Shown here: positions 1,830-3,360 of the stretch, one piece after another
How the letters are laid out: every line of letters begins with the position of its first letter
How positions within the stretch are numbered: position 1 is the first letter of the stretch
From: a bacterium
GTDB lineage: Bacteria; Thermosulfidibacterota; Thermosulfidibacteria; Thermosulfidibacterales; Thermosulfidibacteraceae
Assembly (NCBI GenBank): GCA_027022065.1
Contig: JALVZS010000225.1
Location: forward strand, 407-17,854
Reading direction: 5' to 3'
Length of the DNA stretch: 17,448 nt
Made by a program: the position numbers and the translations under genes
The notes under the pieces: model-generated
What the model saw: only the letters and a program-made list of their open reading frames with translations
Told to the model about the DNA's origin: nothing
Database searches by the model: none

Positions 1830-2251
1830 TATTTGTCTTCATAGTGCTTCAGGTGCTCTTTGATATAGTGGTCGTTTTTCTTCTGTTCTTTCTTGCCTCC
1901 CGTAGAAGGCTTGAAAAGAAGGATCTAGAAAGGGTGCTGGCGGTTGAGGAACGCATAAAAACCCTTATTGAAGATAAGGCGAAGGAGATAGGGGCACTTC
2001 AGGATGCTGTGGTTTATGAGAAGGATAGGGCCATAAAGGAGCTAAAGAAGCTTGAGCTTGAGGTGGAGAGGAAGATGAAGTTTCTTTCCGATGCGGTTTC
2101 CCGCAAGGAGGAAGAAAAGAAGAAAAAGAGGGAATTGGTTAAGCACCTTTTAAGCAAGGGTAAAAGCCCTGCTGAGGTTGCAAAAGAGCTTGATATGCCT
2201 TTAAGTGAGGTTAAGTTTATCGCAGAGCTCATGGGGAAGGCTGGTTTATAA
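1811..2251 (+). CDS. Membrane-anchored coiled-coil protein with C-terminal helix-turn-helix-like end (DUF6115/DUF2802-like)
   Basis: This 146-residue protein has one N-terminal membrane segment (about residues 5-28, very rich in Val, Leu and Phe) followed by basic residues, placing the rest in the cytoplasm. Residues 30-112 are a highly charged predicted coiled coil. The last 35 residues (GKSPAEVAKELDMPLSEVKF region) resemble a small helix-turn-helix. This architecture is known from uncharacterised families next to flagellar genes, often directly after PilZ genes; I assign the family by pattern only. No enzyme motif is visible. The start overlaps the PilZ gene; AGGAG abuts the ATG, so initiation may depend on coupling. 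The 3' end overlaps the convergent SUMF1 gene by 23 bases and contains an inverted repeat over its stop. Confidence 0.7.
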   Translation: MSGSHLVFVFIVLQVLFDIVVVFLLFFLASRRRLEKKDLERVLAVEERIKTLIEDKAKEIGALQDAVVYEKDRAIKELKKLELEVERKMKFLSDAVSRKEEEKKKKRELVKHLLSKGKSPAEVAKELDMPLSEVKFIAELMGKAGL

Positions 2252-2966
2252 CCAGCCTGAATCCTATGGTGTCGTAGCTTCTTTCTGGAGAAACTCTCAT
2301 CTTAACAGAGCATCTTAATAGCTTCCTTTTGCTTTCCCATCCGCATCCCTTTATAAGACCTTTTTCCTTCATCATTTCCCACACGTTTCCCATCATGCCG
2401 TAAAGCCCAAGTTTATTGGGTGGAAGTGCCTTTACTGGAGAGGTGTATCTAAAGGGGTCATTTTGGGAGCGGCCTCCAAATCCCGACCAGTAGTTTGCTG
2501 GCACGGTTTCACTTTTTCCCTTTTTGCAGGCGTATTCCCACTGGATCTCTGTGGGTAAATCTATTGGTAGCTTGGTCTTTTCCCTCAACCAATTTATGAA
2601 GGCCTGGGCGTCAAGCCAGCTTATGCATACCACGGGATCCTCTGGGGTTTGTTTAAACATGGGCTTTGCCGTGTCCTCGCATCCCCAGAGGTCCTTTTTG
2701 GCTGGTCTGTAATGTGTGGATTTCACAAACTGCCACCAAAGTTTCAGTGGGACTTCCGTTTCTGAGATCCAGAATCCCTTTACACACTTTTTAACTGGAG
2801 GCTTTTCGTCCATATAGCAGTTTGGGTTGTTTCCCTCGCAGCCCATTATAAAGCAACCGCTTTTCACATACACAAAGTTCATACCCATAAGGTTAAGCTT
2901 TTTCGCCTGTGCTGTTAGGGATATAAGCAGGAAAATAAAGACGGCTTTAAAACTCCTCCTCTTCAG
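2229..2966 (-). CDS. Secreted FGE-fold (SUMF1 / formylglycine-generating-enzyme family) protein, probable CTG start
   Basis: The body matches the SUMF1 fold: FIMGCEG near the N-terminus, WISETEVPLKLWWQFV, PVVCISWLDAQAFINWL, LPTEIQWEYAC, GLYGMMGNVWEM and a terminal IGFRLV. The first in-frame ATG (2888) has no ribosome site and starts inside the domain. Extending upstream to CTG 2966 gives a good Sec signal peptide: MKRRSFK, a hydrophobic core AVFIFLLISLT, and AQA before the mature protein. GGGAGG sits six bases before that CTG. There is no ATG, GTG or TTG between the upstream stop and 2888. The full product is 245 residues. Nine Cys in the mature part would suit disulfides outside the cytoplasm. 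The paired active-site Cys of true FGE are not in their usual place (KGCGW replaces RGGSW), so an enzymatic role is doubtful; a structural or binding role is more likely. It overlaps the GcvH-like gene by 20 bases. Confidence 0.8.
   Translation of the reverse strand: MKRRSFKAVFIFLLISLTAQAKKLNLMGMNFVYVKSGCFIMGCEGNNPNCYMDEKPPVKKCVKGFWISETEVPLKLWWQFVKSTHYRPAKKDLWGCEDTAKPMFKQTPEDPVVCISWLDAQAFINWLREKTKLPIDLPTEIQWEYACKKGKSETVPANYWSGFGGRSQNDPFRYTSPVKALPPNKLGLYGMMGNVWEMMKEKGLIKGCGWESKRKLLRCSVKMRVSPERSYDTIGFRLVINQPSP
2238..2258. terminator. Perfect 9-bp inverted repeat over convergent stop codons (possible bidirectional terminator)
   Basis: AGGCTGGTT, a TAT loop, and AACCAGCCT form a perfect 9-bp hairpin on either strand. 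It covers the TAA (2249-2251) of the plus-strand coiled-coil gene and the last codons of the minus-strand SUMF1 gene. No T-tract follows on either strand, so it is not a canonical intrinsic terminator; it may still end or protect both transcripts. Confidence 0.45.
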
Positions 2967-3360
2967 CTCCTTCCTCCCTTATGGTTTCTATGTAGTCTTC
3001 ATACTCCTCTTTAGGCATTAGTCTGTTTAGCTCGTCTGGATCGTGGAGCCTTATTACGGCTATCCATCCGTTTCCGTAGGGGTCCTCGTTGATGAGGGAG
3101 GGATCGTCTATGAGCATCTCGTTTATCTCAATCACCTCCCCACTTACAGGACTGTATATGTCCATAGTGTCCCTTAGTGACTCAACTGAGGCTATCACCT
3201 CCATTTGGGATACCTCTTGTCCAATGGAAGGAAGCTCAACATAGGTTATCTCTCCAAGCTCATCTACTGCAAACTCAGATATGCCTATGGATACAGTTTC
3301 CTCGTCCTCTATCCTTGCCCAGCTATGCTCTTTAGTGAAGAGAATCTCTTCCCTTTCCAT
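2947..3360 (-). CDS. GcvH-like protein lacking the lipoyl lysine (Lys to Arg)
   Basis: This 137-residue protein is a homologue of glycine cleavage H protein: TKEHSWARIED at 9-19, IGISEFAVDELGEITYVELP at 25-44, and PVSGEVIEINE after the modification site. The lipoyl hairpin of active H proteins reads ESVKAxxDxYxP; here it reads ESLRDTMDIYSP, with AGG (Arg63) at the lipoyl-lysine position. It should therefore not carry lipoate at the standard site and is unlikely to shuttle methylamine in glycine cleavage. An acidic tail (about 118-137) extends past the usual domain. The start has a strong AAAGGAGG site. It overlaps the tRNA nucleotidyltransferase by 29 bases and the SUMF1 gene by 20, so the three genes are probably one transcript. 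No other glycine cleavage gene (gcvT, gcvP, lipA, lipB) is in the window. Its role is unknown. Confidence 0.85.
   Translation of the reverse strand: MEREEILFTKEHSWARIEDEETVSIGISEFAVDELGEITYVELPSIGQEVSQMEVIASVESLRDTMDIYSPVSGEVIEINEMLIDDPSLINEDPYGNGWIAVIRLHDPDELNRLMPKEEYEDYIETIREEGAEEEEF
2973..2978 (-). promoter_or_regulatory. Ribosome binding site that supports the CTG start of the SUMF1 gene
   Basis: The minus strand reads GGGAGG followed by six bases (AAGGAG) and CTG at 2966-2964. It lies inside the end of the GcvH-like gene. It is the only strong site that would give the SUMF1 protein its signal peptide. The sequence match is clear; use of CTG is inferred. Confidence 0.5.

Follow-up and report, generated by a model that had tools for sequence, protein, structure and literature searches.

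A SUMF1-like gene with a probable CTG start codon and an export signal in a draft bacterial genome

Where does translation begin when a reading frame carries no canonical start codon ahead of what looks like its N-terminus? This question is raised by a SUMF1-type frame in the 17,448-nucleotide stretch analyzed here (the window), which belongs to contig C225 of a 1.57-Mb draft genome (251 contigs, 88% complete). On the minus strand, a gene resembling that of the CCA-adding enzyme is followed by a gcvH-like gene (3360 to 2947) and then by the SUMF1 frame, which extends from the TAA at 2981 to 2979 to the TGA at 2231 to 2229. The frame opens TAA (2981) GGG AGG AAG GAG CTG (2966) AAG AGG AGG AGT TTT AAA, and its first ATG is preceded by CAG GCG AAA AAG CTT AAC CTT ATG (2888). 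As the earlier note had claimed, no in-frame ATG, GTG, or TTG was found between the TAA at 2981 to 2979 and ATG 2888, and GGGAGG (2978 to 2973) lies six bases upstream of CTG 2966. The features of the site are as follows.

2979 to 2981, minus strand: in-frame TAA stop codon at the upstream end of the SUMF1 frame.
2973 to 2977, minus strand: Shine-Dalgarno sequence GGAGG (within GGGAGG), six bases 5' of the CTG.
2964 to 2966, minus strand: candidate CTG start codon, overlapping gcvH at its 3' end by 20 bases; ATG at this place in the relative L002.
2904 to 2966, minus strand: predicted signal peptide MKRRSFKAVFIFLLISLTAQA, with putative cleavage after AQA.
2229 to 2903, minus strand: predicted mature SUMF1-like (PF03781) protein, 224 amino acids, nine cysteines.
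2886 to 2888, minus strand: first ATG, the choice of most gene finders, without a Shine-Dalgarno sequence.
2947 to 3360, minus strand: upstream GcvH-like gene, overlapping the candidate CTG start and ending GAG TTT TAA.

The frame is open for 245 codons with codon usage typical of the genome, and the extension from CTG 2966 encodes MKRRSFKAVFIFLLISLTAQA followed by KKLNL, with the SUMF1-type domain after it. The features of a Sec signal peptide, namely, a positive n-region, a hydrophobic core, and an AxA cleavage site, are present according to a score built on our own rules (positive n-region, hydrophobic core, and small residues at -3 and -1) and not on SignalP. As a reference, we used 558 kb of the same genome containing 435 genes, 75 of which have a signal peptide at their canonical start. 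The CTG form scored 6.93, a value that was reached by 2 of the 75 signal peptide genes and by none of 6,716 wrong-frame open stretches, 1.8% of which passed the rules (the comparison against the CTG form's own score was post hoc). A start-free 5' extension of 15 codons or more occurs in 87 genes, and the SUMF1 frame was the only one of these with a convincing signal peptide. The claim of the earlier note that a signal peptide is encoded between the stop codon and ATG 2888 was borne out. The codon usage of the extension was likewise of the coding type: its level was attained in 169 of 435 real N-termini and in 114 of 8,255 wrong-frame stretches.

The aligned spacing between GGAGG and CTG 2966 is 3, and the genome mode is 3 to 4. 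Since an equally long match, of only five bases, precedes 11.8% of internal CTG codons, the Shine-Dalgarno sequence alone is weak evidence for this start. None was found before ATG 2888 or ATG 2882. Three other in-frame near-cognate codons (ATT 2936, CTG 2930, and ATA 2924) were rejected, as they have no Shine-Dalgarno sequence and their use would remove the positive n-region.

We compared the locus with two genomes of the same family. The nearest relative of the protein is the SUMF1 protein L002 of genome G002 (54% identity), which starts at ATG and whose N-terminus, MIKNIAIFVLIFCSIAYA followed by TPKNW, is a signal peptide. In a global alignment that spanned the full proteins with small gaps, the ATG of L002 fell on CTG 2966 and the two signal peptides fell on each other. 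The comparison of aligned start codons suggested by the earlier note thus returned a canonical codon in one relative, and, on the evidence of this ATG and the aligned signal peptide, its reading of an exported protein beginning at the CTG gained support. Close relatives yielded no homologue with its start at the place of 2888 and without the hydrophobic segment. The G002 gene occupies a different locus, adjoining a multiheme-cytochrome-like gene, and no SUMF1 gene lies behind G002 gcvH (73% identity). Because of this difference in position, the overlap between CTG and gcvH was observed solely in the genome that contains the window. A scan of genome contigs returned only distant SUMF1 proteins (26 to 29% identity). 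The dependence on a single close relative with its gene at another locus and the 251-contig state of the draft both count against CTG 2966.

The predicted protein matches the PF03781 profile over residues 30 to 239 (E = 8.8e-36; 124 bits versus a curated cutoff of 23.3), and the nearest solved structure by sequence is that of PvdO (PDB 5hha; E = 1.3e-14), with formylglycine-generating enzymes next. In an alignment with L031 to L035 (FLCSPDYCMRYR), the active-site cysteine pair of formylglycine-generating enzymes, LCxxxxC before RYR, was absent, with GWESKRKLLRC in its place. We therefore ruled out a formylglycine-generating enzyme and describe the protein as SUMF1-like. It shares a SUMF1-type sequence with PvdO but differs from it in its cysteines and loops, and the partner pathway of PvdO is that of pyoverdine. 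The mature form would contain 9 cysteines in 224 residues (4.0%; rank 8 among 435 genes), a content that fits an exported protein in an oxidizing compartment, and the best description would be a periplasmic SUMF1-like protein, probably held by disulfides. A structure predicted from an alignment of six rows was set aside (mean pLDDT, 46).

We consider it likely that the SUMF1 gene starts at CTG 2966 and that its product is exported. Translation would be initiated at the CTG with the initiator fMet, and the ribosome would be placed by GGAGG. Since the final 20 bases of gcvH are shared with the frame that opens at the CTG, termination and re-initiation by ribosomes that have translated gcvH would be the natural, and probable, source of these ribosomes. 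The 245-amino-acid precursor would carry a Sec-type signal peptide, and cleavage after AQA would leave a 224-amino-acid, cysteine-rich SUMF1-like protein in the periplasm. A single substitution in ATG, GTG, or TTG is the most likely origin of the CTG, and we infer that the CTG keeps expression low. Rare CTG starts are already known, and the SUMF1 frame would add another case. In E. coli, CUG belongs to the seven codons that initiate translation most strongly (PMC12350097). Counting against CTG 2966, switches from AUG to CUG are very rare, having occurred at 2 of 61,358 ancestral AUG starts (PMC5622118), and the CUG of Caulobacter dnaA, which has a Shine-Dalgarno sequence and gave a toeprint, is nevertheless unused in vivo (PMC8443254), which calls for caution over start codons assigned from sequence.

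In E. coli, infC starts at AUU. A non-AUG start of infC is well known, for example, AUA in S. aureus, where ccpN (AUA) and cvfC1 (AUU) also have near-cognate starts and where AUU and AUA starts in poor medium gave ~10% of the expression from AUG (PMC13009471). The SUMF1 frame resembles these S. aureus and E. coli genes in the absence of a canonical start, a properly spaced Shine-Dalgarno sequence, and a conserved N-terminus. It differs from them in that its codon is CTG, not AUA or AUU, is not conserved (the relative has ATG), follows a shorter Shine-Dalgarno sequence, and is known from sequence alone. The last difference also applies to Streptomyces sigR, whose GTC start has been tested at the bench and shown to be subject to IF3 repression, such that a start of this kind can act as a regulatory device (PMC5472188); the likeness lies in a noncanonical start codon in an operon gene with coupled translation, which for the SUMF1 gene would be coupling to gcvH.

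Near-cognate starts were also surveyed in about 815 kb (about half) of the draft genome, covering 594 genes, for cases in which coding begins before any canonical start and a Shine-Dalgarno sequence precedes CTG or ATT/ATC/ATA. Three further good cases were obtained. The infC gene (G000:C249:4267-4791) has an ATA start behind GGAGGTGTAGCC (Shine-Dalgarno sequence, GGAGGT), with IF3_N matching from residue 12, and this ATA is conserved across the order, in G001, G004, G005, and G006. The gene for a THUMP/UPF0020 RNA methyltransferase (G000:C76:4810-5970) has a CTG start behind a full AAGGAGGT, and the two relatives in the family both have TTG at the aligned position (CTG-K-A-L-F-STERG versus TTG-R-V-M-F-TTERG and TTG-K-V-M-F-STERG), with an alternative ATG start three codons downstream of the TTG in each. 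On these alignments, the predicted CTG start of the methyltransferase is better supported than that of the SUMF1 gene. The third case is a CRP/FNR-type regulator (G000:C26:6612-7289), for which an ATA behind AAGGAGGT is the probable start, as the match to its cNMP domain, from profile position 2, sets in 43 residues ahead of the first canonical start codon; this ATA was not conserved in relatives. Two other candidates (L092 and L193) were set aside because, by eye, their extensions were unlike a recognizable protein N-terminus. For near-cognate codons behind Shine-Dalgarno matches of at least 5 bases in 5' extensions, the excess was not significant (P = 0.65), and for matches of at least 7 bases, it was weak (5 of 165 versus 19 of 2,475; P = 0.014). 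Since class-wide enrichment was weak or absent, we did not rely on the Shine-Dalgarno sequence as evidence.

These cases indicate that near-cognate starts are used more than once in the lineage, and the second CTG start and the ATA of infC count in favor of CTG 2966. A broader proposal, that start codon discrimination is relaxed in this lineage, with several genes starting at CTG or ATA and regulation through the ATA-started infC, strikes us as doubtful; if true, a set of genes including that of the exported SUMF1 protein would respond to the level of IF3.

The cases also bear on a base error. CTG is one base away from each of ATG, GTG, and TTG, the relative has ATG at the aligned place, and the genome is an incomplete draft in many contigs, so that the true codon at 2966 might be canonical and the CTG an error of sequencing or assembly or a variant carried by a minority of the metagenome. 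However, consensus substitution errors in assemblies are uncommon, and a second CTG start, with its full AAGGAGGT, occurs in the same genome, which makes independent errors less likely. Given the near-cognate starts elsewhere, we regard a mere base error as unlikely; were it real, the signal peptide would stand and only the codon would turn ordinary. It is very unlikely that the gene is decaying and has lost its start codon together with parts of the domain. Two loops present in L002 (9 and 12 residues) are missing, including DWY after GNVWE, and the KGGGWES motif has GC instead of GG, but the 245 open codons, genome-typical codon usage, Shine-Dalgarno sequence, and intact signal peptide all speak against decay.

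A cytoplasmic protein starting at ATG 2888 (or 2882), with the hydrophobic segment a chance product or a remnant, would retain the whole Pfam domain, which begins past 2888. This start nonetheless seems highly improbable given that neither ATG has a Shine-Dalgarno sequence, the relative carries a signal peptide, the extension is an open stretch that resembles both coding sequence and a signal peptide, and the cysteine content is high. The view of the earlier note that an annotation from 2888 would be truncated and wrongly cytoplasmic is supported. Gene finders limited to ATG, GTG, and TTG would yield a seemingly cytoplasmic protein of 219 amino acids, whereas the real product is very likely the 245-amino-acid exported precursor predicted from CTG 2966. 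With two apparent CTG and two apparent ATA starts in roughly half of a single draft genome, losses of N-termini and export signals to start codon rules may be commoner in such lineages than is generally assumed; the consequence outside annotation is small.

The end of gcvH (2947 to 2960, minus strand) reads AGGAGG AG TTT TAA A, a prfB-like shifty stop with the SUMF1 gene in the +1 frame. A frameshift here, with a cognate slip from TTT to TTT before the stop and a Shine-Dalgarno-like stretch just upstream (a combination found in 2 of 435 genes), would fuse GcvH to SUMF1, and the hydrophobic stretch would serve as a membrane anchor, an outcome we can scarcely credit since G002 gcvH ends in TTC TGA with no SUMF1 gene behind it, the G002 SUMF1 gene has its own ATG, the purine-rich run is accounted for by a Glu-rich GcvH tail common to G002, and AQA resembles a cleavage site and not part of an anchor. 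The shifty-stop context is probably a by-product of this tail. The GcvH-like protein itself has Arg at the position of the lipoyl-lysine, with VESLRDTMDIYSP instead of ESVKAxSDIYAP. No other GcvH was found in the genome, and the nine genomes of the order yielded no glycine decarboxylase (PF02347). Arg also occupies the lipoyl position in G004 to G008 and Lys does so in G002, and this GcvH-like family is, as judged from these residues and genomes, apparently an orphan, nonlipoylated one.
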